From Clostridia bacterium (GTDB lineage Bacteria > Bacillota > Clostridia > Oscillospirales > Acutalibacteraceae), in assembly GCA_017402845.1 (NCBI GenBank), contig JAFPLH010000079.1, forward strand, positions 1 through 64,000: a DNA stretch of 64,000 nt, written 5' to 3'. A program made the position numbers and the translations under genes. Below are positions 3,094 through 60,159 of the stretch, in pieces (the first letter of the stretch is position 1; each line of letters starts with the position of its first letter). The notes beneath the pieces are model-generated. The model made no database searches, was not told the origin of the DNA, and worked only from the letters and a program-made list of their open reading frames with translations.

Positions 3094-3190
3094 TTTTTAT
3101 TACCTCCTGAATTCAGACATAATATATCCGATATTATCTATGTGGCTTGCTATTCACATAAAACGCAAACCCTGTTTTTTGGCAAGCTCC

Positions 3191-3216
3191 AAAAGCCCGA
3201 AATCAAAGGGCTTTTG
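3191..3216 (-). terminator. hairpin between glgD and glgA, possible attenuator
   Basis: Stem AAAAGCCC/GGGCTTTT (3191-3198 and 3208-3215) just past the glgD stop. Read on the minus strand the 3' arm ends in TTTT, like a weak intrinsic terminator with its A/T tract inside the stem. It lies inside the glg operon, so partial termination is more likely than a full stop. Confidence 0.5.
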
Positions 3217-3230
3217 AAACTGCCTTTATA

Positions 3231-5563: not shown

Positions 5564-5639
5564 AGTTAAGTCCTCCATTTCAATTTTTTCTGTATTATAG
5601 TTCACATAATTCAAGCATATAAAATCAGCTTAAAATAAG

Positions 5640-7901
5640 TTATTCGCCTTTTGAATCCTTTGCCGATTCTTTCTTATGCTTTTCAGAGTCGGCATCTTTC
5701 TCTTTGTCTTTACTTTCTTTCTCTTTATCTTTACTATCTTTGTCTGCTTTATCAGACTTTGATTTTTTCGACTGATGTTTTTTAGACTTTTCGCCTTTTT
5801 CTGTATTCTCTGGATCCTTTGCTTTTTCCTCTTTAACAGTCTTTAAGCTCTCTGATTTCGCAGTTTTCTTTTCAGCCTTTTTGATCTTTGTTGAACCCTC
5901 CGACTTTTTGTGTTCTTTTTTCTCGGCTTTATCGTGATCTTCTTTTTTCTCGTCCTTTGTCTTTTTCACGCACTTGAAATACATTACAGACAACGGGGGA
6001 ACAGTGATCGTAACAGAGTTTTCAAGCTCGTGACACTTTTTCTTTTTAGATTTGATCTCAACTCCGTTTGTAAAGCCGCTGCCGCCGTAGCCTTCGTTTT
6101 CGGTAGAGAATACCTCAGCGTAAACGCCTGCATACGGAACACCTACCATATATTCTTCACGAAGCATTGGCTGAAAATTACACACGATAATAAGCTCGTC
6201 GCCCTTCTTGTCAATTCTTCTGAATAAAAGAATAGAACGCTGATAATCGCTGTGGCATATCCACTGAAAGCCCTCCCATGAAAAATCGACTTCATACAAA
6301 GGCGAATTTTCTCTGTAAAAGCGGTTCATATCTCTGAAAAATGCCTGAAGCTGCTTATGTGTATCGTAGTCAAGAACCTCCCAATCGAGCTGCTTCTGAA
6401 AATTCCACTCGTCGAACTGTCCTATTTCTGCGCCCATAAACGTAAGCTTTTTGCCGGGGTGAGCCATCATATAAGCGATAAATGTCTTTACGCCGGCAAA
6501 TTTCATATTATAGTCGCCGGGCATTTTGTTCATAAGCGAGCATTTGCCGTATACTACCTCGTCATGACTGATAGGAAGCATAAAGTTTTCACTGAATGCA
6601 TAAATAAGCGAAAACGTCAGATTATCGTGATGATATGGTCTGTAAATCGGATCAAGAGCCAGATAGCGCATCATATCATTCATCCAGCCCATATTCCACT
6701 TAAAGCTGAAGCCCAGACCGCCGGTATCGGCAGGACGTGAAACCATCGGGAACGCCGTAGACTCCTCTGCGATCATCATATTACCGGGGAACAGCTCATA
6801 ACATGAAGTATTAAGCTTTCTCAAGAAGTCAATAGCCTCAAGATTCTCTTTGCCGCCGAACATATTCGGACACCATTCGCCGTCTTTTCTGTTGTAGTCA
6901 AGATAAAGCATTGAAGCGACCGCATCAACACGAATACCGTCAATATGGTATTTATCCATCCAGAACATAGCGCTTGATATCAAGAAGCTTACCACTTCAT
7001 AACGGCTATAATTGAATACAAGTGTACCCCACTCTTTATGTTCGCCCTTTCTCCAGTCCTCATACTCATAGCAGCACGTACCGTCAAAGCGTATAAGGCC
7101 GTGAGAATCTCTCGGAAAATGTGCAGGAACCCAGTCAAGAATAACGCCCAGACCTGCTTTATGAGCCTTGTTTATAAGGTACATAAAATCATGCGGTGTA
7201 CCATATCGTGAGGTAGGAGCATAATAACCGGTAACCTGATAGCCCCATGAGCCGTCGAAGGGATATTCCGTAAGTGGCATAAACTCAATATGAGTATACC
7301 CCATATCGGCAGCATACGGAACAAGCTCGTCTGCAAGCTCGATATAGCTTAAAAAGTCGCCGTTGTCTTTTTTTCTCCACGAGCCCGCATGAACCTCATA
7401 GACATTTACAGGCTTATCGTTATATATACTTGGTTTTTGTCTGATATCGTTCTCGTCATCGGTATTGCGAGCCTTTGCAAGAGATCGTTTATTTTCAAGC
7501 CAATCGTCGTCTTCCCATTCAAAGCCCTCAATATCATAAAATTTAGAAGAGTTGCTCGGACGTGTTTCAAAATGGAACGCATAGGGATCAGATTTATATA
7601 AACGCTCTCCCCACTGAGTATCTATACAGTATTTATAGTTATCGTACTCGTTTACCACATTAGGAATAAAGCACTCCCATACACCTGCTTCGCTCAGCTT
7701 GCCCATTGGATTTGCCTCGGGATTCCAGTAATTGAAATCACCCACTACCGATACTTGCGCAGCATTGGGCGCCCACACGCGAAAAACCACGCCAAGCTGA
7801 CCATACATATATGACCTGTGCGCACCTAACAGATCGTATGCCCTGACACTGCTGCCCGAGTGAAAATCATCCAAAAGGCTTTGTACAACGCTGTCTATCA
7901 T
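5640..7901 (-). CDS. glgB: 1,4-alpha-glucan branching enzyme with Lys/Glu/Ser-rich C-terminal tail
   Basis: GH13 branching enzyme: N-terminal CBM48-type domain (VWAPNAAQVSVVGDFNYW), then a TIM barrel with nucleophile Asp in GIRVDAVASMLYLDY, acid/base Glu in MIAEEST and region IV LPISHDEV. It introduces alpha-1,6 branches in glycogen. The start chosen is the ATG at 7901, with GGGAG 10 bases upstream; a TTG at 7952 would add 17 residues. The last 108 residues (bases 5640-5966) are an unusual low-complexity tail of Lys, Glu, Asp and Ser that follows the normal C-terminal beta domain and has no counterpart in typical GlgB. First gene of the glycogen operon. Confidence 0.95.
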   Translation of the reverse strand: MIDSVVQSLLDDFHSGSSVRAYDLLGAHRSYMYGQLGVVFRVWAPNAAQVSVVGDFNYWNPEANPMGKLSEAGVWECFIPNVVNEYDNYKYCIDTQWGERLYKSDPYAFHFETRPSNSSKFYDIEGFEWEDDDWLENKRSLAKARNTDDENDIRQKPSIYNDKPVNVYEVHAGSWRKKDNGDFLSYIELADELVPYAADMGYTHIEFMPLTEYPFDGSWGYQVTGYYAPTSRYGTPHDFMYLINKAHKAGLGVILDWVPAHFPRDSHGLIRFDGTCCYEYEDWRKGEHKEWGTLVFNYSRYEVVSFLISSAMFWMDKYHIDGIRVDAVASMLYLDYNRKDGEWCPNMFGGKENLEAIDFLRKLNTSCYELFPGNMMIAEESTAFPMVSRPADTGGLGFSFKWNMGWMNDMMRYLALDPIYRPYHHDNLTFSLIYAFSENFMLPISHDEVVYGKCSLMNKMPGDYNMKFAGVKTFIAYMMAHPGKKLTFMGAEIGQFDEWNFQKQLDWEVLDYDTHKQLQAFFRDMNRFYRENSPLYEVDFSWEGFQWICHSDYQRSILLFRRIDKKGDELIIVCNFQPMLREEYMVGVPYAGVYAEVFSTENEGYGGSGFTNGVEIKSKKKKCHELENSVTITVPPLSVMYFKCVKKTKDEKKEDHDKAEKKEHKKSEGSTKIKKAEKKTAKSESLKTVKEEKAKDPENTEKGEKSKKHQSKKSKSDKADKDSKDKEKESKDKEKDADSEKHKKESAKDSKGE

Positions 7902-7977
7902 AGTATGCACACTCCCTTTTGCCGTTAATTTTTGATTATTTGCTTTTTTCAATTACAAATTCCAAATATACATATAT

Positions 7978-25560: not shown

Positions 25561-27039
25561 TTATTCTTCAGTCTTCTTTCTTGTGTAGAGAACAACTGCA
25601 GCAGCAGCCATAAGGATTACAACGAGAGAAACAACAGCGAATGTACCTGCTGTCTGAACAGTAGCAGCTGTGTTGTTTGATGTGCTTGTAGTAGCAGCCT
25701 TAGATGTTGTAGAGCTTGTCTTCTTAGAAGCATTATCATCTGTACCCTTGCTCTCTGTCTTAGAAGATGTGTTAGAAGTTGTAGAAGTTGTGGATGTTGT
25801 AGAAGTTGTAGAAGTTGTAGAAGTTGTAGAAGATGTCTCAGAAGATGTTGTAGAAGATGTCTCAGAAGATGTTGTAGAAGATGTTGTTGTATCTGTATCA
25901 TCTGAATCTACTATTGAATCTGTATCATCTGTATCTGATGCAGCATGATCGCAGATTACATCTACCTTGAGTTCTGTGTAGTTATCAATTACGGAAGGAT
26001 CCTTTGTATCGTTGATAAGAACGTCAACTACATCGTCATCCTTGATAGTTGTGATTTCTGTTGTGATTCTGGAAAGACCAAGATCCTCAACGTTGAAGTC
26101 CTTGAGAGCCTTGAATGTGAATGTCCAGAGAGCAACTTTATCGCCTGCGAAAGCGTGCTCTTCACCAGTAGGATCGAATACGCAACCGATAGCAAGTGTG
26201 TGCTCAAAACCGTCATCAGGAGAAAGGTTATCGTTTACAAGAACTGTACCTGTAACACCAGCAAGCTTCTCTTTCTCGCCTGTGTATGAGAGGTATGCAG
26301 GATCAAAGTCAACGTAAGATGTGAGTGTACCAGCAGGATCAACGCCACCGAACATAAGAGCAACCTTTACTGTGTCACCCTCGTGCCATTTCTTGTCACC
26401 TGCAGGAGTTGTGTCAGTATCGTCACCATCTGTTACAACTGCATCTTTACCATCTTTTACGAAATCGTATGTGCCAAAGTAGTCAGCATACTTCTTGTAG
26501 TAGTACTCGCTGGAAGGATCAATTGAGAACCACTCACCGGATGTTGTGATAGCACCGGAGTACTCATTAACTGACTGATGAGCTTCATCGTTAGCAAGAA
26601 CGTAGATCATGTTGTACATGTTGTCGAGCTTGTCATAGATGGGGTTCTTATCCTTTGCTGTGTAACCCTCAACATTGATGTTGATTGTCTGATGAGCAAC
26701 AGCAGCAAGTGCAGGATCAGCAGGGTTGCCAGCGTCAACAAATGCGTTGAAGATGATTGTAGAAGTAGCATCCTGATCAGGGCACTCTGTCTTATATACG
26801 TTGTAGCCAACCTCAGGAGCAGCTGTCATGGGGTTGCCAGGCCAATCTGCAGCCTTATTGTCTTCAGGCTCCCAGTAGTAAACACCTACATTATTGTTTG
26901 TTGCGAGATATGCATCAGGTGCGCAGAAGTAGTAAGTAACTGTGTCAGCAGCAGAAGCTGTAACAGCGCCTACACCAACAACGAGCATTGCAATCAACAT
27001 TGCAGCAGAGAGTACAATACTAATAACTTTCTTGGACAT
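25561..27039 (-). CDS. surface protein with CBM26-like starch-binding and cohesin-like domains
   Basis: A 492-residue secreted protein. Signal peptide 1-31. Residues 33-195 look like a family-26 starch-binding module: VTYYFCAPDAY, an aromatic-rich strand VGVYYWEPED, and the hallmark WPGNPM at 66-71. Residues 217-363 form a cohesin-like domain (EGDTVKVALMFGGVD...TFTFKALKDF). Then a Ser/Thr stalk (about 385-455), VQTAGT (461-466), a hydrophobic segment (467-486) and RKK. It could hold starch and dock enzymes on the same chain; this is inference from the domain patterns. Its signal peptide, stalk and anchor are close relatives of those in the 22910-23833 protein. Confidence 0.75.
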   Translation of the reverse strand: MSKKVISIVLSAAMLIAMLVVGVGAVTASAADTVTYYFCAPDAYLATNNNVGVYYWEPEDNKAADWPGNPMTAAPEVGYNVYKTECPDQDATSTIIFNAFVDAGNPADPALAAVAHQTININVEGYTAKDKNPIYDKLDNMYNMIYVLANDEAHQSVNEYSGAITTSGEWFSIDPSSEYYYKKYADYFGTYDFVKDGKDAVVTDGDDTDTTPAGDKKWHEGDTVKVALMFGGVDPAGTLTSYVDFDPAYLSYTGEKEKLAGVTGTVLVNDNLSPDDGFEHTLAIGCVFDPTGEEHAFAGDKVALWTFTFKALKDFNVEDLGLSRITTEITTIKDDDVVDVLINDTKDPSVIDNYTELKVDVICDHAASDTDDTDSIVDSDDTDTTTSSTTSSETSSTTSSETSSTTSTTSTTSTTSTTSTTSNTSSKTESKGTDDNASKKTSSTTSKAATTSTSNNTAATVQTAGTFAVVSLVVILMAAAAVVLYTRKKTEE

Positions 27040-46851: not shown

Positions 46852-47790
46852 TTAACCTTTTACAGCACCTGCAACAACACCCTCGATAATATACTTCTGA
46901 CAAACCAGATAGAATATGATGATCGGGATAATTGCCAATACAAGCATTGCCATCATAGCACCCATATCAACAGAGCCGTAACCGCCCTTAAGATACTGAA
47001 TAGCTATCGGAACTGTCTTATATTTTGTCTTATCAAGAACCAGTGAAGGCAAGAGGTAGTCATTCCATATCCACATTGCTTCAAGAATAGCAACTGATAT
47101 ACAAGTCGGCTTCAATATAGGCATAACAACCTGAAAATATGTTTGAACAGGGTTACAGCCGTCGATCATTGCCGCTTCTTCTATCTCAATGGGTATAGAC
47201 TTTGCAAATCCACAGAACATAAATACCGCCAATCCGGCGCCGAAGCCCAGATATACAACTATAATGCCTATCGGGTTGCCGAGGTGGAGTGTATCTGCTG
47301 TTTTAGCAAGTGTAAACATTACCATCTGGAAAGGTACGATCATTGAGAATACACACAAATAGTACATACAAGTTGAGAAAACGCTTTTTACTCTTGTGAT
47401 GTACCAACCGCACATTGAAGTACAGAGTATGATAACAAATACCGAACCGACAGTGATAATGATAGAGTTAACAAAAGCAGATGTAAAGCCTATTTTCTGC
47501 ATACCTGAGGTATAGTTGCTTAAAATCGGGTTTACAAGTGTCTTAGCATTCGGCAAAGAGAACGGACTCTTATTGATGTAAGCCTTTCTCTTGAATGAGT
47601 TGATGAATACCAAAACTATCGGTATTACATAGATAACAGAGATAAGCGAAAGAAGAATTGACCACAAGCCGGAATATGGTGACTGTCTGCTGCTCGTAGA
47701 TTTTTTACGCGCACTCTTTTTTACAAGAGCCTGTACCTCCGGTGGTAACTGGTCTCCCTTTTGGAGTGTAGTAGGTTTGTATACTGCCAT
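46852..47790 (-). CDS. carbohydrate ABC transporter permease (MalG/UgpE type)
   Basis: A 312-residue inner membrane protein with six predicted segments and the cytoplasmic EAA loop EIEEAAMIDGCNPVQTYFQVVMPI that docks the ATPase. The 40-residue basic N-terminal extension is longer than usual. It starts with ATG overlapping the MalF-type stop as TAATG, with AAGGAGG upstream. Together with its partner it would import a sugar or oligosaccharide delivered by the lipoprotein encoded at 50372-51775; the sugar is not predictable from sequence alone. Confidence 0.92.
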   Translation of the reverse strand: MAVYKPTTLQKGDQLPPEVQALVKKSARKKSTSSRQSPYSGLWSILLSLISVIYVIPIVLVFINSFKRKAYINKSPFSLPNAKTLVNPILSNYTSGMQKIGFTSAFVNSIIITVGSVFVIILCTSMCGWYITRVKSVFSTCMYYLCVFSMIVPFQMVMFTLAKTADTLHLGNPIGIIVVYLGFGAGLAVFMFCGFAKSIPIEIEEAAMIDGCNPVQTYFQVVMPILKPTCISVAILEAMWIWNDYLLPSLVLDKTKYKTVPIAIQYLKGGYGSVDMGAMMAMLVLAIIPIIIFYLVCQKYIIEGVVAGAVKG

Positions 47791-48641
47791 TACTGCTGTA
47801 CCTCCTTTCGATGTGTAAGGAAGAGCTGTGCAACTGCAAGAGCGCCGACAATAATAAAGAATACTACTGCCTTTGCCTGACCGATACCTTCATAGCCTGC
47901 ACGTCCGTAGAACGTATCGTAGATATTAAGTGCTAACAGCTGCGATTTATTCGACGGCGCACCGTTAGTAAGAGCCAAGTTCTGGTCGAACAGCTTAAAG
48001 GAGTTTGTAAGAGTAATAAATGTACAAATCGTGATAGACGGCATTACCATAGGCAATATTACCTTTCCGAGAACCTGAACATCTGTTGCGCCGTCTATTC
48101 TTGCAGCTTCAAGCAGCTCACTCGGAACATTCTGAATACCTGCAATGTAAATAATCATAACATAACCTATTTGCTGCCAGTTCATGAGTATGACCATACC
48201 CCAGAAGCCGTAGGTTGCGCTATAAGTAAGAGTAGCATCAAAGACTTTTGAAATTATGCCGTTTAAAATTAACTGCCAGATATAACCCAAAACGATACCG
48301 CCTATGAGGTTTGGCATGAAGAATACCGTTCTGAATATATTTGTACCTCTAATGCCCTTTGTTAAGAGCATCGCTATTGAGAAACCGAAAACATTTATTG
48401 TTATTACAGAAACCACAGCAAACAATGCTGTATACCATAATGCATGGATAAACTCACTATCGTACTTAAATACCTCTTGAAAGTTTTTAAAACCAACCCA
48501 CTGAGCGTCGTTTACCGTAGTAAATTTACAGAACGACAAATATATACCCATACCGAACGGTACTAAAAAGCCTATAATAAATGCTATCAATGTTGGCAAC
48601 GCAAAAAGCGGAAAATATATTCTTAATACCTTTTTGTTCAC
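47790..48641 (-). CDS. carbohydrate ABC transporter permease (MalF/UgpA type)
   Basis: A 283-residue permease with six membrane segments and the EAA loop ELLEAARIDGATDVQVLGKVILPM. It starts at GTG with AAGGGAAG upstream and is translationally coupled to the next permease. A 171-base leader separates it from the DUF815 gene and contains a conspicuous inverted repeat. No ATP-binding subunit is encoded nearby, so the importer probably uses a shared MsmX-type ATPase from elsewhere in the genome. Confidence 0.92.
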   Translation of the reverse strand: MNKKVLRIYFPLFALPTLIAFIIGFLVPFGMGIYLSFCKFTTVNDAQWVGFKNFQEVFKYDSEFIHALWYTALFAVVSVITINVFGFSIAMLLTKGIRGTNIFRTVFFMPNLIGGIVLGYIWQLILNGIISKVFDATLTYSATYGFWGMVILMNWQQIGYVMIIYIAGIQNVPSELLEAARIDGATDVQVLGKVILPMVMPSITICTFITLTNSFKLFDQNLALTNGAPSNKSQLLALNIYDTFYGRAGYEGIGQAKAVVFFIIVGALAVAQLFLTHRKEVQQ

Positions 48642-48669
48642 TCAAATCTTCCCTTCTTGTCAGCCTTTA

Positions 48670-48702
48670 GACAAGCTCGTACAGATCATATACGATCTTG
48701 TC
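48670..48702. repeat. inverted repeat in the permease leader
   Basis: Arms GACAAGCTCGTA (48670-48681) and TACGATCTTGTC (48691-48702) are 12 bases each with one mismatch, separated by 9 bases. No T-run follows on either side, so it is not a standard terminator; operator or leader RNA hairpin are both possible. Confidence 0.5.
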
Positions 48703-48812
48703 CTAAAAAAGAGCCTTAATTAATATCGGGCAATAAGCTTTTTGCCCTTATACTTTGTTTTTTCAAAAATCAACAGCCGCCGAAAAAGTAACTTTTCAAT
48801 ATAAAGCATAAA

Positions 48813-50111
48813 TCAGCATTTTCCGAGTAGATAGTCTATAAACTGCTGTGCAGTACGTCCTGAAAGACCTCCATGTTCAAGCTCCCACCTGTTCGCCTGA
48901 CGAATCAATTCGTTCTGTTCAATATTTAATCCCGCACGCTGCGCCAGTGTACAAACTATATTATTAAACTCCTTTTTATCAGGTGAGCCGAAATATATCG
49001 TAACGCCAAAACGTGAAACCAATGAAAGCTTTTCCTGCACTGTATCAGTTTTATGCACATCTCCTGTCCAGCCGTCACGATCAGAAAAATCTTCTTTTAT
49101 CAGATGACGTCTGTTAGAAGTAGCATAGATTAATACATTATCGGGTTTCTTTTCAAGTCCGCCTTCAATTACGGCTTTTAGATACTTATACTCCACCTCA
49201 AATTCTTCAAAAGAAAGATCGTCCATATAGATTATAAACTTATACTGACGCTTCTTGACCTGTGCGATAACGTCGTTCAGATCTTGAAGCTGATGTTTAT
49301 AAATCTCTATTATTCTGAGTCCGTCCTCGTAATAGCGGTTTAGTATAGCCTTTATACTCGTAGATTTACCGGTACCCGCATCTCCGAAAAGCAAGCAATT
49401 GTTTGCACGTTTACCCTTTAAAAATGCCTCAGTGTTATCAATGAGCTTTTGCTTTGCGCTATCGTATCCGACAAGATCATCAAGATGAACATGAGCAATA
49501 TTATTGATCGGTACAATTTTTGCAGAGCCGTCGTTTATAACTCTGAACGCTTTATGCAAGCCTATGCTTCCCACTCCGAAACGAGAATAAAATTGCGTCA
49601 TAGCTGAGGTAAAATCCTCTATTCCTTTAGCCTGTGCAAGATTTTTTCCAAGCTCGCATATACAGTCTCTTATTCTCTTGTTGTAGACCTTGCCTGCATT
49701 GTCACTTCTTTTGTAATGTGAAATATCGTTGATCAATTCGGCTGATATAAAACATTTATATACGGACAGATCGAATGAAAACAGCTCCATAAATATTTCA
49801 TAGTCATGTTTTGCGAATGACATTACGGTACCCTGCGGAGCAGCTCTTACTTCACAGGCGGTACTGAATACATTCTCGTCATTCACAAGCAAAAAAGCCA
49901 AATAGCTGTGCCACAGATTATCTTCAAAGCCGTACTTTCCCGCTATGTCTATCAGCTCATACACACAGTCGTACATTTTATTTATCAATGATCTGTCGGT
50001 ACACTCTCGTTCTTTATACTCACGAGAAAAATCATACAGACGAACCATCTCGCACAACAAATTCTCTTTTAATACATTTCTGTATATAACCAAACCATTG
50101 GTATCAACCAT
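48813..50111 (-). CDS. DUF815 AAA+ ATPase
   Basis: A 432-residue cytoplasmic P-loop ATPase of the DUF815 family. The N-terminal 200 residues are helix-rich with no motif I know; the ATPase part begins about residue 200 (LDDLVGYDSAKQKLIDNTEAF) with Walker A FGDAGTGKST, Walker B FIIYMDDLSF, and a sensor-like LIYATSNRRHLI. Function unestablished. ATG at 50111 with AGGG 8 bases upstream preferred to a GTG three codons earlier. It sits between the sugar-binding lipoprotein gene and its two permeases, an uncommon place for it. Confidence 0.85.
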   Translation of the reverse strand: MVDTNGLVIYRNVLKENLLCEMVRLYDFSREYKERECTDRSLINKMYDCVYELIDIAGKYGFEDNLWHSYLAFLLVNDENVFSTACEVRAAPQGTVMSFAKHDYEIFMELFSFDLSVYKCFISAELINDISHYKRSDNAGKVYNKRIRDCICELGKNLAQAKGIEDFTSAMTQFYSRFGVGSIGLHKAFRVINDGSAKIVPINNIAHVHLDDLVGYDSAKQKLIDNTEAFLKGKRANNCLLFGDAGTGKSTSIKAILNRYYEDGLRIIEIYKHQLQDLNDVIAQVKKRQYKFIIYMDDLSFEEFEVEYKYLKAVIEGGLEKKPDNVLIYATSNRRHLIKEDFSDRDGWTGDVHKTDTVQEKLSLVSRFGVTIYFGSPDKKEFNNIVCTLAQRAGLNIEQNELIRQANRWELEHGGLSGRTAQQFIDYLLGKC

Positions 50112-50304
50112 AATCCACACCCTGCTTTACAGTGAAAAACCACCTTTTCGGCAACTGTTTATCTCTGAAAATTATACATTTTAGAAACAGAAAAATATCC
50201 TTATCAAAATCATATCTTGTATTGTATTCTTACAGCGTATGATACTACTATACTTTCGTACAAAACTGAAAGCATTCGATACAAAACAAAATATGTTATT
50301 TAAC

Positions 50305-50340
50305 TGCAAAAGAGTGAACGGAGCAGTTCCGTCCACTCTC
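50305..50340 (-). terminator. hairpin after the sugar-binding lipoprotein gene
   Basis: An 11-bp stem of type GAGTGAACGGA/TCCGTCCACTC with one mismatch at about 50313-50339, then TTTTGCAGTT on the minus strand. It probably causes partial termination, making the binding protein more abundant than the downstream products. Confidence 0.65.
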
Positions 50341-50371
50341 TGCAAAATAATTTTAAGTATTTACTTTTAAA

Positions 50372-51775
50372 TTACTGATCTGCTGTTTCAGCGGGAGCGT
50401 CACCGTTTGCAGCAGCATACTCATCAGCCCAGCCTTGAACGAAAGCAGTAACAACAGCATCCCAGTCGCCTGTACCCTGTGCATACTCAAGCAAAGCGCT
50501 GCCAACGCCGTCTTTCCACTTCTCACTCGGAATTGTCGGGAAGTTCCAAGAAACAGATGTCTTACCAGCAGCGATATACTCATCAGCAGCCTTAATAAGA
50601 GCGTTGTCAGAAGTATAACCGTCATCAAATGTCTTGAACGGAGTTACAAAGCCCATCTGGTTAGCAAGAGCATCTCTACCCTCATCACTTGTGATAACCC
50701 AATCAAGGAATGCGATTGTAGCCTGAATGTCAGCCTCAGAAGCCTTGCTGTTTACGCACCAGTAGTTCTCAGTACCTGTGCAAAGGCCCTGATTTTCTTC
50801 GCCCTCAGCACCGATATAGATAGGAAGCATACCGAGTTCTTCATCTGTGATGCCCTCAGCTGTTGCGTCTGCATAAGCCCATGTACCGTTCTGATAGAAA
50901 ATAGCCTCACCAAGAGCAAACTCAGAAGCAGCGTCGTCACCTGTCTTAGAGGAGATCATCTTAGGATCGCAAGTTGAGTTGTTGATATAAAGATCCCAGA
51001 TAGCCTTATAGTTATCAAGATATGTACCCTTGATAGCGCTTGTAGAGCCAATACCGTCAGCCTTGTACTCATAGTAAATAGGAAGGTTAGCAAGGTGTGT
51101 CTTAAATCTCCAGTCAGAGCTTGAATCCATACCTGCTGATGTGAATGCACCGGAGATTCCGAGATCATCCTTCTTAGCCTGAATATCTTCAACAACAGAC
51201 TTGAATGTATCAAAGTTGTTGATCTCATCAACAGAAGTTACAACTGCGCCGTCTGTCTCAAAGTACTTGTTAAGTAATGTCTTGTTATAAATAATACCGT
51301 ATGTTTCGATAACATAAGCGATACCCTTAGCAGCCTCGCCGTCCATAAGAGCGAAGTCGTTACTCTTGAGGTTAGAGAAGAGAGAAGTATCCTTGAGGTC
51401 ATAGCAATAGTCATTCCATGTCTTAAGCTCAACAGGACCATTTACCTGGAAAAGTGTAGGAGCCTCTGACTTAGCCATTTCAGCTTTAAGTGTTTCTTCG
51501 TATGTACCTGATGCAGCTGTCTGAACCTTAACCTCTACGCCTGTCTGAGTAGTGTAAGTCTTAGCAAGCTCCTCCCAGATAGCGCTGTTCTCAGGCTTAA
51601 AGTTAAGGTAATATACCTTACCGCCTTCAGCAGCTGCTGTGCTCTGTGTACTTGTGCTGTTAGTGTCATTAGTAGAAGCAGTAGTTGTTGTACCCTGCTC
51701 ACCGCAGCCTGCAAATGCACAAACTGAAAGAGAAGCAGCCATAGCAAGGGCAATACCCTTTTTCAAATTTCTCAT
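50372..51775 (-). CDS. carbohydrate ABC transporter substrate-binding lipoprotein
   Basis: A 467-residue extracellular solute-binding protein of family 1. Signal peptide with lipobox FAGC (Cys24), so it is anchored to the outer face of the membrane; a Thr/Ser linker follows, then the two-lobed binding fold (YLNFKPENSAIWEELAKTYTTQTGVEVKV, and the AIFYQNGTWAYA signature). Ligand unknown; many relatives bind malto- or other oligosaccharides. It has a strong promoter and ribosome site AAGGAG, and is the first gene of the importer cluster. Confidence 0.93.
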   Translation of the reverse strand: MRNLKKGIALAMAASLSVCAFAGCGEQGTTTTASTNDTNSTSTQSTAAAEGGKVYYLNFKPENSAIWEELAKTYTTQTGVEVKVQTAASGTYEETLKAEMAKSEAPTLFQVNGPVELKTWNDYCYDLKDTSLFSNLKSNDFALMDGEAAKGIAYVIETYGIIYNKTLLNKYFETDGAVVTSVDEINNFDTFKSVVEDIQAKKDDLGISGAFTSAGMDSSSDWRFKTHLANLPIYYEYKADGIGSTSAIKGTYLDNYKAIWDLYINNSTCDPKMISSKTGDDAASEFALGEAIFYQNGTWAYADATAEGITDEELGMLPIYIGAEGEENQGLCTGTENYWCVNSKASEADIQATIAFLDWVITSDEGRDALANQMGFVTPFKTFDDGYTSDNALIKAADEYIAAGKTSVSWNFPTIPSEKWKDGVGSALLEYAQGTGDWDAVVTAFVQGWADEYAAANGDAPAETADQ

Positions 51776-51995: not shown

Positions 51996-52568
51996 ATGAT
52001 AATCCAGACTTTAGACCGTAAACGTATGCTAATAAATTTAGATGAAAATGATCTTCAGATATTTAATATAAAAACATCTGCATTTTCATTTCGTGACGAA
52101 CCCACCAAGCTTATTATACGTGAGATCCTTTCACTGGCTGTTATAAAAACCGGCTTGAACACAAAAAACAGAACATTATCGGTAGAAGCGCTCCCATACA
52201 GGCAAGGCTGTTATATATTGGTAACGCTTAAAAACAAATCAGATAGAAAAAAATACCGAATTAAACAAGTCGAATCAACTGTACTTATTCGTTTTTTTAC
52301 TGCCGAAGCATTATTAGACGCTATAAGTATACTATATCCCAAAAATATGCAAGCAGTAAACACTGATCTTTATTTGTATAATGGAGCACGTTATCTTTTA
52401 CTGCGTTCAAATAAAAGGATCCCCGACTCTATAATACTAACCTTATCTGAATATGGTAAATGTTATCCGTGTAGTAAGCTTATGTCAGCTTTACTTGCAG
52501 AGAAAAGTCAACTGATAAGACAGAATGACGCTATTACATATATCGGAGAAATATTGGACCGACACTGA
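51996..52568 (+). CDS. MecA-like adaptor protein
   Basis: A 190-residue protein whose N-terminus (MIIQTLDRKRMLINLDENDLQIFNI) and the central RTLSVEALPYRQGCYILVTL match the pattern of MecA-type adaptors, which feed proteins to the ClpC-ClpP protease and regulate competence in Bacillus. The C-terminal part (LYLYNGARYLLLRSNKRIPDSIIL) fits the MecA C-terminal domain loosely. The match is moderate. It is divergent from the sugar importer and convergent with the pilin operon. Confidence 0.6.
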   Translation: MIIQTLDRKRMLINLDENDLQIFNIKTSAFSFRDEPTKLIIREILSLAVIKTGLNTKNRTLSVEALPYRQGCYILVTLKNKSDRKKYRIKQVESTVLIRFFTAEALLDAISILYPKNMQAVNTDLYLYNGARYLLLRSNKRIPDSIILTLSEYGKCYPCSKLMSALLAEKSQLIRQNDAITYIGEILDRH

Positions 52569-52616: not shown

Positions 52617-52652
52617 TACGAAAAATAGTCCCTGCCGAAAAAGCAGGGACTA
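52617..52652 (-). terminator. terminator of the pilin-like operon
   Basis: 10-bp stem TAGTCCCTGC/GCAGGGACTA (52626-52635 and 52643-52652), then TTTTTCG on the minus strand, just beyond the last pilin-like gene. Confidence 0.85.
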
Positions 52653-52679: not shown

Positions 52680-53405
52680 TTACGGTGTTGATGAAGAAGA
52701 ATCTATTGCAGTTCTCTCGCTATGGAAGCATACGCACTTATTGTTTGTAAGATTTGTAGAATCCTGATTCCAAATAAGCTTTGCTGTATATTTAGGATCA
52801 GTTGTTGCATAATTCTCCATATTACCTCTTTCACCGGCAGCCGTATTTCCTAAAATAATACCACCGCTGTAAGTATAATCTGTTGCAACGATCTCATATA
52901 CAAGCTTTAGCTTCATACCGTCAATACTTTGACTTGAACCGCCTGTTCCGGTTACTGCTGCGTAATCGTAAGGACAGATCGTAAGGTGTACTTCTTCAAT
53001 ATTTGTAAGTGTAAGTGCAACATTATAAGAATTTGTAGCTTCGCTGTACTTCTTAAAGTATACACATTTATTTGCTTGATCGAATACCATACATTCGTCA
53101 TTTTCAACAGGAGTATAACCGGCTGCTGTAAAACTCGGAGTAAAGGTGAGCGGATCAAGATCAAAAACATCTACACTTGAACCAACTTGAAACTCATTAC
53201 GGATAAATCTCTCCACCTGAGTAATGTGGAACTGTTCAGTCGTAATATTGCCTGTTTCTTTAACAGATTTATGAACTGCCATAAATACACTTACAACAGC
53301 CGTTGATGTGATAGCAAGAATAGCTACAACAGCAAGAACTTCAATTACAGTAAAGCCCTTTTTTTCGTTACTCTTGTATCTCTTGAAAAAATCTTTCAGA
53401 TTCAT
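52680..53405 (-). CDS. type IV pseudopilin (GspJ/PilW-like)
   Basis: A 241-residue prepilin-like protein: basic leader with cleavage motif KKG|FTVIEVLAVVAILAI, a hydrophobic helix of about 22 residues with the Glu5 typical of pilins, then a globular beta-rich domain. It lacks further recognisable domains. The large size of the globular part and its place after a smaller pilin suggest a minor pilin of J type in a tip complex; that is inference. ATG start. Third gene of the pilin operon, 62 bases after the second, closed by a strong terminator. Confidence 0.85.
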   Translation of the reverse strand: MNLKDFFKRYKSNEKKGFTVIEVLAVVAILAITSTAVVSVFMAVHKSVKETGNITTEQFHITQVERFIRNEFQVGSSVDVFDLDPLTFTPSFTAAGYTPVENDECMVFDQANKCVYFKKYSEATNSYNVALTLTNIEEVHLTICPYDYAAVTGTGGSSQSIDGMKLKLVYEIVATDYTYSGGIILGNTAAGERGNMENYATTDPKYTAKLIWNQDSTNLTNNKCVCFHSERTAIDSSSSTP

Positions 53406-53467
53406 ATTAGTTACCGCCTTTCCAATATATTAAAACAGTTATCAAGAATTATGTACAATAACCAAAA

Positions 53468-54058
53468 TCATTCAATATAATTGGCAGGTGCGAAAACTGA
53501 AAGCTCTGCTGCATTATATCTATTGCCTTGACCAACAGTTTGATAATATACTCTGACTTTAATTTCCCATCCGCGTTGTTTTAGCCACTTTGCAGTAAGA
53601 CCATCATTTTCAGTATCAACAAAAACCTCAGTTACAGGTGTCAAAGTATACTGTATCTCACAGTCTGTTTCAGGATTAAAGTTTGTAACATCTTCAAATC
53701 CATACACATATTGTACCTTTCCAATAAGGTCATACTGCGGATCATCATTAGCTGTACCTGTACCGCCATTGTTTATTACAGCATCAATAGCATTATGCAA
53801 ATTGTCTACAACATTCAAGTCGATAGGATCGCCGGGGTCATAACCCGTGGCGATTGAGAATATCTCATCTGCCACGAGCTGACCTCTGTCAGAGGCTTTC
53901 TCACGAGCGTTGTTTGTGAATACCATTTGTCTTGAGAAGGAAACTGCATTAAGAATACCAACAAAAACGATAGCCATGATAAGTATAGAACATATAGCTT
54001 CTACAAGGGTAAAACCCTTTTTACTTTTTGTTATTCTTTTTAAGTACTTAGTTACCAA
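53468..54058 (-). CDS. type IV pseudopilin (GspI/PilV-like)
   Basis: A 196-residue prepilin-like protein: KSKKG|FTLVEAICSILIMAIVFVGIL with Glu5, hydrophobic helix, then a globular domain with an ADEIFSIATGYDPGD loop. The AxSILIM...GILNAVSFSRQ pattern resembles I/PilV-type minor pilins. Its start overlaps the end of the giant pilin-like gene by 11 bases, so the two are translationally coupled. No prepilin peptidase, assembly ATPase or platform protein is in the window. Confidence 0.87.
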   Translation of the reverse strand: MVTKYLKRITKSKKGFTLVEAICSILIMAIVFVGILNAVSFSRQMVFTNNAREKASDRGQLVADEIFSIATGYDPGDPIDLNVVDNLHNAIDAVINNGGTGTANDDPQYDLIGKVQYVYGFEDVTNFNPETDCEIQYTLTPVTEVFVDTENDGLTAKWLKQRGWEIKVRVYYQTVGQGNRYNAAELSVFAPANYIE

Positions 54059-57000
54059 TGTACACTCCTCCTCCGAGATCTGATTTTGTTTCGTCTACAA
54101 GAACATAGTGCTTTCTCCAGTCATTTGCACTACCTGTTGTACCAAGTGAGATCTCAGCAGAAGTTACTGATGATGAGAGATTATATAAATATGTTCCGTG
54201 ACTAATTGTGAAACGGCCCTGTGGTGTAGTAATTAACGTATCGGTACGGAATACAACAGTTTTAGCCGTAATAGTAAAGTTTTTGTTGTTAAGGTCTATG
54301 TTGTTTGCAGCGATAGTAACAACACCTGCTTCAAGATCTACATTTCTGTCAAGTGTAAGAGTATCATCATTCTTAGCATTCTTGAAACGGAAGTTGATTC
54401 TGTCTGCTGTACCTGCTTTAGCTTCAGCGTCAGTTCCTGCCGGCAGATCAAAACCATCGATCATAATATCTTTGCTGCCGGGACCTGTTGTTACAAGTGA
54501 TGTGCCCCATGCTGTATAAGGTGTTGAACCAACGTCATTAGCCAGACCGATTCTTGCCTTGTTCTTGAAGAACTTCTCAGCTTCGTCAGTAAACAAGTTG
54601 ATACCAACTCTGTTAGGATCGCTAAAGTCTGTTGTAAAGTTCTTGTAAGCAGCCTTAGATATCGTGTATGCACCGGCATAAATTGTATACGTATGTTCAA
54701 GGAGATTCTTCTTGTATTTTACAGTAGTATCATAGTTGAAGTATACAATAAACGGTTTGTTGTCGTTATCCTTGTAATAAGCGCCATAAGCTGCTGTGTA
54801 GTCATTCTCATCTATCAAGTCATAATTACACTTAACTGTATACAAGGACTTATCTTCCTCAAACTTACCTGTTGCTGTATGATATGTGTATCTCCTGCCA
54901 TTCTGCATTGTTTGAGTTGTAACATCATTTGGAATAGCTGTGTCTGTTCTTGCAATACAGAATTCTTTTGTAGCAAAATTGTTCTTGAATACATATGCAT
55001 AGAAGCCTTCGTTAGACTGAGTTGTTTCATAAAGATCAAGACCAGTATTTACCCACTGATTTGACTCATTCTTGTTCCACAATGCAATCTTAGAAATATC
55101 CCATCCACCGTTAATTGTAGTTACTCCGCCTTCTGTTGTTTCAACAGCCTGGTTATCTACAATGATCTGAACAGCGTCGCTGCTAAGCTCGATCTCAGGA
55201 TAAGAAATAATTGCATTAAGTTCATCGGTGTAATAGATCATATCACCGAGAATATTGCCGTTGCTGCCATCGCCATAAAGACCGATTGCCTGAGAATATA
55301 CATTTCTAAGACAGTTGACCCATCTCTCGGCATACTGAACAACACTGTCTCTGTAACTGCCTTCAGGGAAGATATAGTCGCCGCTGTATTCACCGCCGTC
55401 ATCAGGATCAATACTATCAGCTATATAAATTCTTGTATTGGTAATTGCAGTTGCAAAATTCTTAGCAATTTCAACTGCCTGTGTATAGTTAGCAGAATCG
55501 CCTGCAGACCATGCAGGAGAACCGCCATCAGACCAATGTTTATCGCTGCCGGCTCTCTCGTAGTTATTCTTCGCGTTTTCTTCCATTGTTTCAAACTCAT
55601 TAATAATGAGCTTTTCTGCAGAACTATAAGACTTAGTATCGCCGTGATATGTGTATTTATTATTTAATGTTGTTGCGTTCTTTGCACTTCGAGCATCCTG
55701 ATATCCGTAAAGTGCAAGTGTTTTCGGATGACAGAAGAATACGAGATTATTTGGCGTACCGCCTCTGTTAAGAGCATTTGTAGGATCACAAAGAATCTGA
55801 TATTCACGATTTTCTTCAATACCTGTAAAGCAGAGTGTACCTGTTCTGTTTGCAGTCGGTGCGTCCTTATCGAAGAACTCGAAGAAGCAGTAATCACCTG
55901 TATCGAATTCAAATCTGTAGAATGTATTATCTGCGTTTGATCTGTCGATCTGTGCATCAAAGTTGCCATCGTTCTGTACACCGTATGCATGGATACCAAC
56001 ATTATTACTCCATGAATCAGGCTTATTCAGATAGATAGATACTGTATCGTTAGGAGTTGTATCAACATTACCGATATATGTATCATAAGTGTAGCACTGA
56101 AGTTTGCCGTTCGGATCACGATAAAGGTACAGCGGGTAATTGTAGTTATTACCTGATTTTGCAACCTTTATAGAAGTAGCGTTGTTCTTGATAAGGTATG
56201 TACTGTCAGATGTAACACCTTTAATATTTTTAATAAGAACCTCTGATGATGTAGGAATTTTAAATGTATACCAGTTCGGAGCATAGTTGTCATAGCTATG
56301 CGGACAATCATCACCATGATAATATGTACCGCTTGATGTAAATACAGCACCGGCACGGTTATCCATGCGAGTTGAAACACCTTGTACATTAGAAATAAGA
56401 GCAAAGTGATTTTCAAGCAAGATACCGCCGTTGTTGCCGTTGCTCTCTTTTACTAAAAGATAGGAGAATCCCCAAGCACTGCAATCATCATCATAGTAAT
56501 ATTTTTCGCCCTGATATGTTACAAAATGATCTGCACTGAATGTAGGATTAGAAACACCATCTGTTCTGAAATCATATCCGTTTGTATATGCGTGTGATGA
56601 GAAGCAGTACTTCTTATTCTTATCCGGAACCAACTCCATAAGAAGCTTAACTATCGGTACGTCATAATAGTTTACCTGCATTGCACCTGTATATACCATT
56701 TTTTCTGAACCGGAAATAGTTTTTGTGGTAGATGTGTAGCTTCTGTAGAAAGTATTGTTGCCCATTTCCCACTCTTTTCCGTTAGGCTTATCATTTGCAC
56801 TTACAGGTACAAAGATCGGATTTGTAACTGTTGCGAAATCTGCATTTTGTATATCAACTGTGTACTCGTAACCGGGGTTGCCTCTCTCGCCGTGTGGTGC
56901 ATTACTGAAGTATATATAGTAAGCGTCGCTTGGAACTGTTGCCCACCAGCAATTCGGATTAGGATCTTCTGCAGAAGGAGCCGTCAACTCTTTATCCTTT

Positions 57001-60000
57001 GTAAGTCCTCTGGGTGAATTGTATGTTACATATACTTTTTCCCAAGGAGCTGTAAAGTTTGTTTTCTGATTTGAGTCGTTTTTATTTGTAAGCTGTGCAT
57101 TATAGAAACCAACAGTTATCGGGTTGATCTCTTCACCGGAAAGATTAAGCTTTACAGCCTGATAACTAATTACCGACTTGCTGGGTTCAGCAATGTTATA
57201 CTTAAATATTGCAGTAACCTCACTCGGATAATCAAGAGTAAATTTGTAACCATCGTCTTCGCCGTCTTTGCCATAAGTTACTCCGTAACCGTCAGCTGCA
57301 CCCCAACATGTTGTATAGTCGATAGTGCCATCATCTTTATGTGAATTTGTGCTTATGATCTTGAATTGGAAGGTGCCGACCTCGAATGTACCAAGCTCAA
57401 GCTTATACGTATTTACCAACGGATCAGCATTTTCAAGTGACATCTTATTGTCACCGGCTAATACTGCATCATAATTATGCTCACACCAGCTATTGTTGTC
57501 GCCTACAACAAAGAAATCAACATCAACTGTATTGTTTACTTCAATAAGTTCAACTGAAATAGCACCAGAGTATTCATTAAATTTGATTATCGGCTTGAAT
57601 TTTCTTGATACGTCTACGTTAGCCGATGCCACATAGTTTCCATCATCATCGGCATCGTCGCCGCTGCCGCCCCAACAGTTACCGGAATGCCAACCTAAGT
57701 TATCATTATCCTCAAGTGCGCCTTCATCGCTAAGCTTTCTTACGATCTTAAATGTAATTACTTCGTCACCATCGATCAAAGGAGCTTCTAATTCATAATT
57801 ACCGCCGGATACGTGATTCATTACAGTCAGATTTCTGTAGAGATGAGGACCATCCGGTTCTTCCTGACCCCATTGATTGAGCCAACCGATAACTGCGAAT
57901 GTAGATCCGCTTCCGTTGCCGTCTGCTGAGTCAGTTGTATACGAGCTTGTTGCATCAGATTTATCGAATGTAATAGTAAGCTTAGTATCGTCGCCAATAG
58001 TAACTGAGTAATTATCGCCGCCGTTACCATACCAGTTAGAATCAATAACACCTTTGTTCTTTGTTTTTGCTACAAACTTATATTTGTATGTGCCTGCGGG
58101 AAGATTATCAAATACCCAAGTGAAAATTGATCCATCAGATGATGTAGGCATTGTGAGATATTCAAAACGGTTTTCGGAACCGCCGTTTCTTGCCCAGTCG
58201 TTAAAGTCACCGGCAATACCCCAGTTGGAAACACCTGCTGTATATGCGTCACCGCTTAAAGCAATGTTTGCTTTACCGAGATTTTCAACCTTCAATTCTT
58301 CATCGGCTGCTGACAATGTGCCTACCTTCGGTACAGAAGCACCGGAAGGAGAAGGAACAGGAGTTGCATTATCGATAAGCTCAGATTCATAATCGATAAA
58401 TGTATCTACCTGTGCATCAACAGGCATTTCGTTTGCTCTTGCATATACTGTAATATAATCGCCTGCCGTAGGATCTTTAAAGTTGCTTGCGATCCAGTCG
58501 TTTGCTTCTTCTTCTGTCGGGAACTGTTCGCTCTGGTTAGTCAGTTCAGTAGGATTCATACCTTCAACAATAAAGGATTCTCTTACTACGTCTTTACCAT
58601 AGCTGTTCTGTGTAAGAATTCTGCTTCTATAATCGTCGCCGAAATAGAAAGACTGATCTTTACAGGGGAATTCATCAAGGAAATTATAGGAAATTGCTCT
58701 GTACCAGCCGTAACCTTCGTATGTTAAACCGGGAACTGCAGGAAGGTCTGTTACACTTTTGTCATTCACGCCTGCTCTCTTGTAGTGAACAATAGCTGTA
58801 TTCGGTTCTTTGGTATAAACCGTATACCATTTACCTGAGAACTGAGCGAAATCATCGATATCTGCTGAGTGTACACTCTCAAAGAGATAAGTAAGCTCAT
58901 CATGGAATCCGTCAGATTTATTACCCGTAGAATACAGATGCTTTGTATCACTCCATTCATAACCTTCTGAAACTGGTGTCTTTGTACACATACGTGCGTC
59001 ACGAAGTGATTTCTGGTTAAGAGTTATATAAACGTCAGCACCGTTGCCCTCACCTGTCTGCTTCGGAACAGGGATACCGAAGAACTCCCATGACTGTGCA
59101 GAAGCACCGTTAAATCCGGAACGCTTACGCAAAGCGCCTTTTCTTGTTACGATAGCATTAATATAGTTGATATTAGTATTTGAAGCAAAAGTAACTTCGT
59201 ATACATACCATCCGTTGCCTTCATATGTCATAGCACCCGTAGGACCTTGTTTTTCATCGGGAAGATCATCAGCTGTGATCCAGTCGCCGGAGAAGTGAAG
59301 TGACGGATACCGCGGATCATTTGAAAGCTTATTAACAATTGAAGAACCGCCATAAGCTGAAGAACTGTCAGAGCTGTTTCTTGTTGAACCGTATGTGTAA
59401 AGATAAGGCTCATATCCCCAAGAAGCTGAAGCTCTTACATGGATACGCAGGAAACGTGTATCACTGGTGGGCTTATAAACGATATTACCGGAGAAAGCGT
59501 TTGGTCTTACCATACTTGTATCTGTAAAATCGAACTCTCTGGTAAGTGTATACATATCGTCGTCGCCGCCGTACCTGCAATATGCGGTGATATCAAGAAT
59601 AGAGCCTGTATTGGTAATATCAAGATATGTATCTACAGCATTCTTTTTAAGTTCATTAACTTTTGCTTGAGGAATAAGCTCGCCCTGAGAGCTGGTGGAT
59701 ACAAGATAAATATCTGCACCGTGAGCGATAACATTATCCCTGAAGACCATAAGAGCAGTACCGCCCGTGTCTCCGCCGGAGTTACCGGGAATCTGATCTG
59801 AATGTTGTGAATAGTAAGATTCGGCAAAAGCAATAGCACTTTTAGCCTGTATGTAGCCTGCACGCTGACCAACAGTAGCCTGAGTTGTTGTGATATTGAG
59901 CGAAGCCATTGATACCAACAACGCAGTCAGCAAAGCAAGAACGATACAGATTGCCATAGTTGTTGACAATGCCATACCTCTTTTTGAGTTTTTCTGCCGA

Positions 60001-60023
60001 AAGCAGCCTCTGAAAGCTTTCAT
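54048..60023 (-). CDS. giant PilX/GspK-like protein with starch-binding-like modules
   Basis: About 1,991 residues. N-terminus: basic stretch KNSKRG, hydrophobic helix about 17-42 (MALSTTMAICIVLALLTALL) and AKSAIAFAES, the pattern of PilX/GspK minor pilins (no Glu5). The rest is a huge outside domain with repeated glucan-binding-like sandwiches: residues about 581-690 (WGIAGDFNDW...AGTYKYKFVAK, like X25/CBM48), 706-830 (VIGWLNQW...ITFKIVRK), 833-958 (VVGDNNSW...GTFQFKIIS), 968-1075 (WEKVYVTYNSPRG), and about 1345-1420 (DSWSNNVGIHAYG, CBM26-like). The C-terminal 200 residues are beta-rich. I start at ATG 60023 (AAAGGG upstream). A strong GGGGAGG 35 bases earlier leaves the start uncertain. First gene of the pilin operon; a tip adhesin is inferred. 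Confidence 0.8.
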   Translation of the reverse strand: MKAFRGCFRQKNSKRGMALSTTMAICIVLALLTALLVSMASLNITTTQATVGQRAGYIQAKSAIAFAESYYSQHSDQIPGNSGGDTGGTALMVFRDNVIAHGADIYLVSTSSQGELIPQAKVNELKKNAVDTYLDITNTGSILDITAYCRYGGDDDMYTLTREFDFTDTSMVRPNAFSGNIVYKPTSDTRFLRIHVRASASWGYEPYLYTYGSTRNSSDSSSAYGGSSIVNKLSNDPRYPSLHFSGDWITADDLPDEKQGPTGAMTYEGNGWYVYEVTFASNTNINYINAIVTRKGALRKRSGFNGASAQSWEFFGIPVPKQTGEGNGADVYITLNQKSLRDARMCTKTPVSEGYEWSDTKHLYSTGNKSDGFHDELTYLFESVHSADIDDFAQFSGKWYTVYTKEPNTAIVHYKRAGVNDKSVTDLPAVPGLTYEGYGWYRAISYNFLDEFPCKDQSFYFGDDYRSRILTQNSYGKDVVRESFIVEGMNPTELTNQSEQFPTEEEANDWIASNFKDPTAGDYITVYARANEMPVDAQVDTFIDYESELIDNATPVPSPSGASVPKVGTLSAADEELKVENLGKANIALSGDAYTAGVSNWGIAGDFNDWARNGGSENRFEYLTMPTSSDGSIFTWVFDNLPAGTYKYKFVAKTKNKGVIDSNWYGNGGDNYSVTIGDDTKLTITFDKSDATSSYTTDSADGNGSGSTFAVIGWLNQWGQEEPDGPHLYRNLTVMNHVSGGNYELEAPLIDGDEVITFKIVRKLSDEGALEDNDNLGWHSGNCWGGSGDDADDDGNYVASANVDVSRKFKPIIKFNEYSGAISVELIEVNNTVDVDFFVVGDNNSWCEHNYDAVLAGDNKMSLENADPLVNTYKLELGTFEVGTFQFKIISTNSHKDDGTIDYTTCWGAADGYGVTYGKDGEDDGYKFTLDYPSEVTAIFKYNIAEPSKSVISYQAVKLNLSGEEINPITVGFYNAQLTNKNDSNQKTNFTAPWEKVYVTYNSPRGLTKDKELTAPSAEDPNPNCWWATVPSDAYYIYFSNAPHGERGNPGYEYTVDIQNADFATVTNPIFVPVSANDKPNGKEWEMGNNTFYRSYTSTTKTISGSEKMVYTGAMQVNYYDVPIVKLLMELVPDKNKKYCFSSHAYTNGYDFRTDGVSNPTFSADHFVTYQGEKYYYDDDCSAWGFSYLLVKESNGNNGGILLENHFALISNVQGVSTRMDNRAGAVFTSSGTYYHGDDCPHSYDNYAPNWYTFKIPTSSEVLIKNIKGVTSDSTYLIKNNATSIKVAKSGNNYNYPLYLYRDPNGKLQCYTYDTYIGNVDTTPNDTVSIYLNKPDSWSNNVGIHAYGVQNDGNFDAQIDRSNADNTFYRFEFDTGDYCFFEFFDKDAPTANRTGTLCFTGIEENREYQILCDPTNALNRGGTPNNLVFFCHPKTLALYGYQDARSAKNATTLNNKYTYHGDTKSYSSAEKLIINEFETMEENAKNNYERAGSDKHWSDGGSPAWSAGDSANYTQAVEIAKNFATAITNTRIYIADSIDPDDGGEYSGDYIFPEGSYRDSVVQYAERWVNCLRNVYSQAIGLYGDGSNGNILGDMIYYTDELNAIISYPEIELSSDAVQIIVDNQAVETTEGGVTTINGGWDISKIALWNKNESNQWVNTGLDLYETTQSNEGFYAYVFKNNFATKEFCIARTDTAIPNDVTTQTMQNGRRYTYHTATGKFEEDKSLYTVKCNYDLIDENDYTAAYGAYYKDNDNKPFIVYFNYDTTVKYKKNLLEHTYTIYAGAYTISKAAYKNFTTDFSDPNRVGINLFTDEAEKFFKNKARIGLANDVGSTPYTAWGTSLVTTGPGSKDIMIDGFDLPAGTDAEAKAGTADRINFRFKNAKNDDTLTLDRNVDLEAGVVTIAANNIDLNNKNFTITAKTVVFRTDTLITTPQGRFTISHGTYLYNLSSSVTSAEISLGTTGSANDWRKHYVLVDETKSDLGGGVYIGN

Positions 60024-60130
60024 TGCTAAAACACCCTTTCTAAAAATTTTAATAAAATATTCCTCCCCGTTTATCGTTACCTGCGGCACAACAAACGTCT
60101 ACCCCCATCAAGGTAGTATTATACAATTAA

Positions 60131-60159
60131 ATTATATAATATATTTAATAAATTGCCAA
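60131..60159 (-). promoter_or_regulatory. sigma-A promoter of the pilin-like operon
   Basis: TTGGCA (60154-60159), 17-base spacer, TATAAT (60131-60136) on the minus strand; a second TATAAT lies at 60118-60123. The leader of about 100 bases has a small hairpin CTACC/GGTAG and a strong GGGGAGGA (60061-60068). Nothing else was recognised in the gene-free stretch 60024-60347. Confidence 0.75.

Follow-up and report, generated by a model that had tools for sequence, protein, structure and literature searches.

Can the tip of a type IV pilus (T4P) become an adhesin for starch? The usual explanation for how resistant-starch degraders make their first attachment to granules invokes amylosome scaffolds and enzymes with CBMs. 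The question is raised by three co-oriented genes (K, then I, then J) on the minus strand, at 52680-60023 of the window, the 64,000-nucleotide stretch of Clostridia bacterium DNA that was analysed. A sequence-only reading had described this locus as a three-gene operon with its own promoter and terminator; its coordinates and products were right, and the operon is flanked by a promoter-like site and a good hairpin terminator. The features, in the direction of the genes, are as follows.

60131..60159, minus strand: promoter-like site TTGGCA-17-TATAAT (consensus match 11/12, which is not evidence of function)
54048..60023, minus strand: K, giant K-type minor pilin gene (1,991 aa; coordinates include the stop)
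53468..54058, minus strand: I, I-type (PilV/GspI/ComGE-like) minor pilin (196 aa; KKG|FTLVE)
52680..53405, minus strand: J, J-type minor pilin, PilW/GspJ-like by position (241 aa; KKG|FTVIE)
52626..52652, minus strand: intrinsic terminator (hairpin with an 11-bp stem and a T tract)

The I and J labels are based on gene order and size more than on scores. K starts with the ATG at 60023, giving a 16-residue leader, MKAFRGCFRQKNSKRG, followed by MALSTTMAICIVLALLTALLVSMA; a longer alternative with a GTG start at 60089 (2,013 aa) was rejected because relatives align and begin at the ATG at 60023. Promoter-like sites overall did not exceed chance frequency, with the TTGGCA-17-TATAAT site (60159-60131) scoring highest. 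An Rfam search of the triad leader gave no riboswitch (c-di-GMP) match, and its sole hit (CAESAR; 24.1 of 45 bits) was judged to be due to chance.

The two downstream products had been called pseudopilins from their G|FTLVE and G|FTVIE motifs, and both exceed the cut-off of the Pfam N_methyl model (I, 27.0 bits; J, 24.5 bits; cut-off 21.2). The mature N-terminus of K (KRG|MALSTTMA) follows a class III signal peptide whose last residue is Gly and leads into a hydrophobic alpha-1. Two regions make up its pilin part:

59805..60023, minus strand: K residues 1-73, hydrophobic helix alpha-1 behind a 16-residue leader with KRG at its end (+1 to +5 MALST, no Glu5)
59469..59804, minus strand: K residues 74-185, pilin-like beta region (predicted strands 88-165; conserved between genera)

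The N-terminus was modelled as a single helix (residues 15-73) followed by beta sheet; the PilX/GspK-type hydrophobic N-terminus proposed earlier is therefore borne out as a prepilin-like helix lacking Glu5, with low to middling confidence in the helix. Position +5 of K is Thr, Ala, Leu or Tyr, and never Glu, in every copy with a readable N-terminus, and Glu5 is always present in I and J. The K N-terminus is homologous to those of K-type pilins across genera. Scores against the NCBIfam GspK model (10.6 of 130 bits for K) and Pfam PilX_N (20.5 of 25.5 bits for the K relative L043) are below the respective cut-offs, so K is designated K-type by its features and is not filed as GspK or PilX. On this sequence evidence, K-I-J is a T4P minor-pilin triad. 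According to a review (PMC10191384), assembly of type IV filaments begins with a complex of minor pilins whose cap is a subunit without Glu5, and because K lacks Glu5 it would, by analogy, sit at the tip of the filament.

The absence of type IV pilus assembly genes had been named as a reason to abandon the idea; pilB, pilT, pilC and pilD were all found in the host genome (2.12 Mb in 110 contigs). They lie on one contig (C51) together with a major-type pilin and, at the PilM and PilO positions, 583-aa and 215-aa ORFs, neither of which has a Pfam match. Genes for an extension ATPase, a retraction ATPase, a platform protein and a prepilin peptidase are thus all predicted, the set of a type IVa-like pilus of monoderms. 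The system does not look like one of the comG (Com pilus) type; PilT is present and the operon is of T4P type. No I, J or K gene adjoins pilC on C51. Across this genome, minor-pilin signatures were confined to I and J of the window (three further N_methyl matches belong to short pilins), an order-wide search returned the window as its only such K match, and a second K/I/J set was looked for there without success. With no other minor-pilin or K signatures, and no I, J or K next to pilC on C51, the two loci were taken to form one complete system.

The triad is widely kept. A contig scan with the single K protein found no loci, and a scan with a K alignment found 17. Of the 22 genus genomes, 18 have a giant K relative and 21 have PilC. 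Three of the four genomes without a K match are <90% complete; one well-assembled genome with PilC (G153) gave no K match. The ORF is conserved beyond chance: full-length K proteins from 13 genus genomes measure 1,871-2,303 aa. As for the host genome itself, the named genomes nearest to it are MAGs of uncultured Ruminococcus that carry RUG isolate names, and these are taken to come from the rumen. Genome G100 was judged not to be that of R. bromii, its pullulanase resembling Amy12 only moderately. The same gene order had been proposed as a search target in relatives: I and J follow K at every genus locus with readable downstream DNA, and other genera of the family have the triad within, or adjoining, a pilM-O-D-B-T-C operon (I-J-K directly after pilC in L041; K-I-J near pilC in L042; likewise at the operon in L045, L046, L132 and L133). 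Gene order within the genus is largely fixed: obg and then a small RNase III-like gene precede K-I-J, which is followed by an oppositely oriented MecA-like gene and then by a sugar-type ABC transporter. In the window, these conserved neighbours are the MecA-like adaptor gene (51996-52568, plus strand; PF05389, 3.2e-12), whose place adjoining the triad is kept across the genus, and the transporter (SBP_bac_8 and two permeases) with a DUF815 ATPase (46852-51775, minus strand).

Beyond the pilin region, K was divided into the following modules and domains.

58989..59468, minus strand: K residues 186-345, CBM26-like module A (VIA structure matches; conserved between genera)
58344..58901, minus strand: K residues 375-560, beta-rich module B (predicted model and between-genera profiles)
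57936..58244, minus strand: K residues 594-696, X25 module 1 with W610 and W664 (Pfam X25 just under cut-off when isolated)
57558..57911, minus strand: K residues 705-822, X25 module 2 with W718 and W778 (profile and structure)
57192..57524, minus strand: K residues 834-944, X25 module 3 with W846 and Y903 (profile and structure)
56634..57140, minus strand: K residues 962-1130, beta-sandwich-like module D, well modelled (predicted model)
55704..56060, minus strand: K residues 1322-1440, CBM26/CBM25 module F (VIA, and Pfam in the relative L059)
55188..55703, minus strand: K residues 1441-1612, helical module G (predicted model)
54831..55187, minus strand: K residues 1613-1731, beta-sandwich H, possibly CBM41-like (VIA CBM41 Z 6.8, borderline)
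54051..54830, minus strand: K residues 1732-1991, C-terminal beta domain, conserved, in which the FxIxxGxY motif occurs twice (between-genera profiles)

The five or more beta-sandwich segments seen in the sequence-only reading resolve into three copies of one X25 module and at least two further modules that are CBM26-like by structure. Their folds were compared with solved structures, and the best matches were starch-binding (7rpy, Sas6, the CBM26 of Amy13K, SusF and a pullulanase X25). The AlphaFold model of K residues 1-1140 is of middling quality (mean pLDDT 65, pTM 0.32), so it can be used for the folds of its modules but not for how they are arranged; a second model, of residues 962-1991, is of higher quality (pLDDT 78.6). 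Module H resembled CBM41, and module D adhesins, too weakly for these matches to be used. Profiles of whole K retrieved nothing from the PDB sequences beyond a weak match to SusF (E 0.024), and profiles of single modules did better.

Residues 590-960 of K comprise three copies of one module (hhalign probability 95.9-97.8%). A profile of 31 copies of this module matched X25-2 of Ruminococcus bromii Sca5 (7rpy) in the PDB at E 5.5e-7 (hmmsearch), followed by SusF at 0.13, and the isolated first copy scored 1.5e-5 against Pfam X25 (25.4 of 27 bits, just below cut-off). The structure models agree. The best Foldseek match of the 1-1140 model was 7rpy (3.6e-6), and with VIA the same structure was matched at 705-960 with Z 9.8 and an rmsd of 16.8 over 199 residues, the high rmsd arising because the two modules move apart; SusF was matched at 594-827 (Z 8.6) and a pullulanase X25 at 702-827 (Z 8.4, rmsd 2.6, 88 residues). 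The modules at 594-944 are X25 modules by both sequence profile and beta-sandwich fold. In Sas20 and Sca5, X25 tryptophans form a platform for maltooligosaccharides, and both tandem modules are needed for tight binding (PMC9112005). The N-x-W position of the X25 alignment is W or F in 31/31 copies, and the position aligned to Sca5 W555 is W or Y in 31/31, an equivalence that depends on the HMMER alignment, with 7rpy numbering deduced from two tryptophans that both fit. W610/W664, W718/W778 and W846/Y903 are accordingly numbered here as candidate ligand-binding aromatics of K.

Two other modules resemble CBM26. Module A (VIA, 190-405) matched Sas6 (Z 9.1, rmsd 2.5, 93 residues) and the CBM26 of Amy13K (Z 8.7, rmsd 2.1, 92 residues); its sequence profile matched no solved CBM in the PDB, and its sole match there (tenascin, 0.14) was rejected. 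Module A is predicted to be CBM26-like by structure only. CBM26 and CBM25 structures are the best matches of the 962-1991 model, and at module F (VIA, 1325-1433) they scored Z 7.4-8.0 overall (CBM26, 8.0 and 7.8; CBM25, 7.6). The homologous segment of L059 exceeds the Pfam CBM26 cut-off (8.1e-8, 32.8 of 28.1 bits), K from the window is itself below the curated cut-off of that model, and the module F profile found R. bromii Amy16 in the PDB at 0.082, which is suggestive only. Module F is modelled as CBM26/25, an assignment matched by the Pfam score of the relative's segment. A giant pilin adjoining pilC in another genus contains three CBM26 modules (Pfam, 1.8e-13); a PDB search with one CBM26 of L042 alone gave no match. 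Elsewhere in the window, a 492-aa secreted protein (25561-27039, minus strand) has a CBM26-like N-terminus (4.2e-6), a middle that resembles cohesin on visual inspection, a stretch rich in Ser and Thr, and a membrane segment at the C-terminus, and is a possible cell-surface starch-binding scaffoldin. A 2,115-aa ORF of the same genome (G000:C50:6335-6814), with two weak CBM26 matches, is another candidate for a very large starch-binding protein.

The extent to which K is shared between genera was assessed by searching other-genus K proteins with a profile for each module; 231 shuffled or reversed sequences served as controls. The pilin region (best 51 bits; control 10), module A (50 bits; control 6) and the C-terminal domain (53 bits; control 5) were recognised between genera, and module B was recognised in one other-genus K (46 bits; control 5). 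Profiles X1, X3, D, E and H gave control-level scores in K proteins of other genera; X2 and F were seen only in L044 among these, and G mainly in L041. The FxIxxGxY motif, present twice in the C-terminal domain, recurs near the C-terminus of most other K proteins, which range from 581 to >2,000 residues. We infer a core consisting of the pilin head, the first sandwich and the C-terminal domain, between which the middle would be an exchangeable passenger. A 2,056-aa K-type pilin in L134 (4336-10503, minus strand) has weak FIVAR-like matches (4.2e-4, below cut-off) in place of CBMs, hinting at a different ligand. Giant prepilins from other families of the order (L129 3893-13462, minus strand, 3,190 aa; L130 6383-15736, plus strand, 3,118 aa) begin with GFTLVE, including Glu5, and were set aside as different from K; they apparently represent a second kind of giant pilin-like protein.

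Taken together, the data make it probable that K-I-J is the minor-pilin triad of a retractable monoderm type IVa-like pilus in which K has grown into an alpha-glucan adhesin of ~2,000 residues. In the proposed mechanism, cleavage by PilD after KRG or KKG would mature all three prepilins, I and J would pair below K, and K, lacking Glu5, would cap the filament-starting complex. PilB and PilC would add the major pilin beneath, carrying K outward at the tip, where its X25 and CBM26-like modules could grip starch granules or similar alpha-glucans through several weak sites simultaneously. Retraction by PilT would then reel the granule in to the cell surface for attack by dockerin-borne amylases and further CBM26 proteins. 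The earlier view of K as an enormous adhesin for starch or other glucans on a pilus tip gains support at the level of homology and fold, with the tip position, the binding of starch and retraction-driven capture all remaining deductions. Judged by its 42 dockerin and 15 CBM26 matches, the host is an amylosome-type organism, and the pilus would therefore serve an amylosome-type cell and not replace the amylosome. K had also been held to represent a surface system distinct from cohesin-dockerin scaffolds, and this agrees with the lack of any Pfam dockerin or cohesin match on K up to E 1; the pilus coexists with a dockerin system. At the other end of the window is a glycogen synthesis operon (1660-7952, minus strand) encoding a starch-synthase type glycosyltransferase, two nucleotidyltransferases (GlgC/GlgD-like) and a GlgB-like enzyme with a CBM48.

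Starch is not the only ligand that such a tip adhesin could have, and its CBM-like folds might have drifted toward host mucin, bacterial exopolysaccharide or glycogen, or plant cell-wall glycans. Module identity drops to 15-30% within the genus, and with such strong variation the ligand may differ among its members; modules B, D, E and G match nothing, and several K proteins of related genera have no detectable CBMs. Against this stand the X25 aromatic positions, retained in every one of the 31 copies, the nearest solved relatives, which are starch binders of the same ecology, and the occurrence of CBM26 in the giant pilin of another genus. A non-starch ligand is on balance unlikely.

The nature of the filament also needs to be considered. 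That the triad primes a DNA-uptake (competence) pilus, the bulk of K being incidental or aiding adhesion to DNA-carrying food particles, is very improbable: the genome does encode a ComEC-type channel and the adjoining MecA-like gene belongs to a competence regulator family, but ComEC is so widespread that its presence says little, PilT and candidate PilM/O-like proteins are present, unlike in classical Com pili, and K has modules of glucan-binding types and no detected DNA-binding domain. It is scarcely credible, despite the very large size of K, that the protein is processed by prepilin peptidase or membrane-anchored at the surface outside any filament, or belongs to an enzyme-pushing T2SS-like pseudopilus; monoderms have no secretin to push through, a PilT retraction motor and pilin genes are present, and TEM shows pilus-like structures in a related starch degrader whose PilX/PilE cluster is split (PMC8726730). 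The retractable pilus tipped with an alpha-glucan adhesin is the preferred reading.

If it is correct, a starch-tipped retractable pilus would add active particle capture and would point to a reason for the retention of pilT in Ruminococcus relatives of the rumen and gut. The balance is about level for a broader proposal, that K exemplifies an unrecognised class of giant T4P tip proteins in gut and rumen starch specialists, in which the pilin with the first sandwich and the FxIxxGxY C-terminal domain bracket a substrate-specific cassette (X25 and CBM26 here), making the pilus a retractable grappling line for insoluble starch that is separate from amylosomes and Sus systems. K offers a concrete, testable protein, and in this K-type subunit the substrate cassette is apparently exchangeable. 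A literature search of partial coverage found no description of a starch-binding T4P minor pilin.

Several known systems share parts of this design. Like the GspK and PilK-PilX-type proteins, K has a hydrophobic N-terminal helix without Glu5 and a large extra domain, and is encoded with I and J; GspK has ~300 residues and one alpha domain, however, and K falls by score outside the GspK equivalog. The tandem X25 and CBM26-like modules of K recall R. bromii Sca5 X25-2, Sas20 and Sas6, whose modules bind starch and whose ecological role is shared, but these are sortase-, cohesin- or dockerin-linked parts of the amylosome (PMC9112005), whereas K has a prepilin N-terminus. Tandem X25-like starch-binding surface modules also occur in Bacteroides SusE/SusF (the 4fe9 match), which, unlike K, are outer-membrane lipoproteins and not pilins. 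T4P have been implicated in adhesion to insoluble polysaccharide in other rumen Ruminococcus, namely R. albus (CbpC) and R. flavefaciens (Pil3), where the protein is a small pilin, the substrate is cellulose and a giant modular tip protein is not described (PMC3672088). In Pseudoruminococcus massiliensis, the starch-degrading R. bromii relative with pilus-like structures, the PilX/PilE cluster is separate from pilBCDT (PMC8726730). The closest parallels are PilB and PilC of Streptococcus sanguinis, monoderm T4P minor pilins in which adhesive modules are grafted onto a pilin module (a vWA module in the 454-residue bimodular PilB, a lectin module in the lectin-like PilC) and which would be exposed at the tip (PMC8179133, PMC9934059). 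K differs from them in its ~10 modules and 1,991 residues, in a conserved C-terminal beta domain beyond the modules and in the alpha-glucan type of those modules. The most extreme example named in the one survey of modular pilins has 860 residues (PMC8179133, PMC9934059), a size range that K approximately doubles. K is an extreme new form of the known modular pilins, not a new kind of system.
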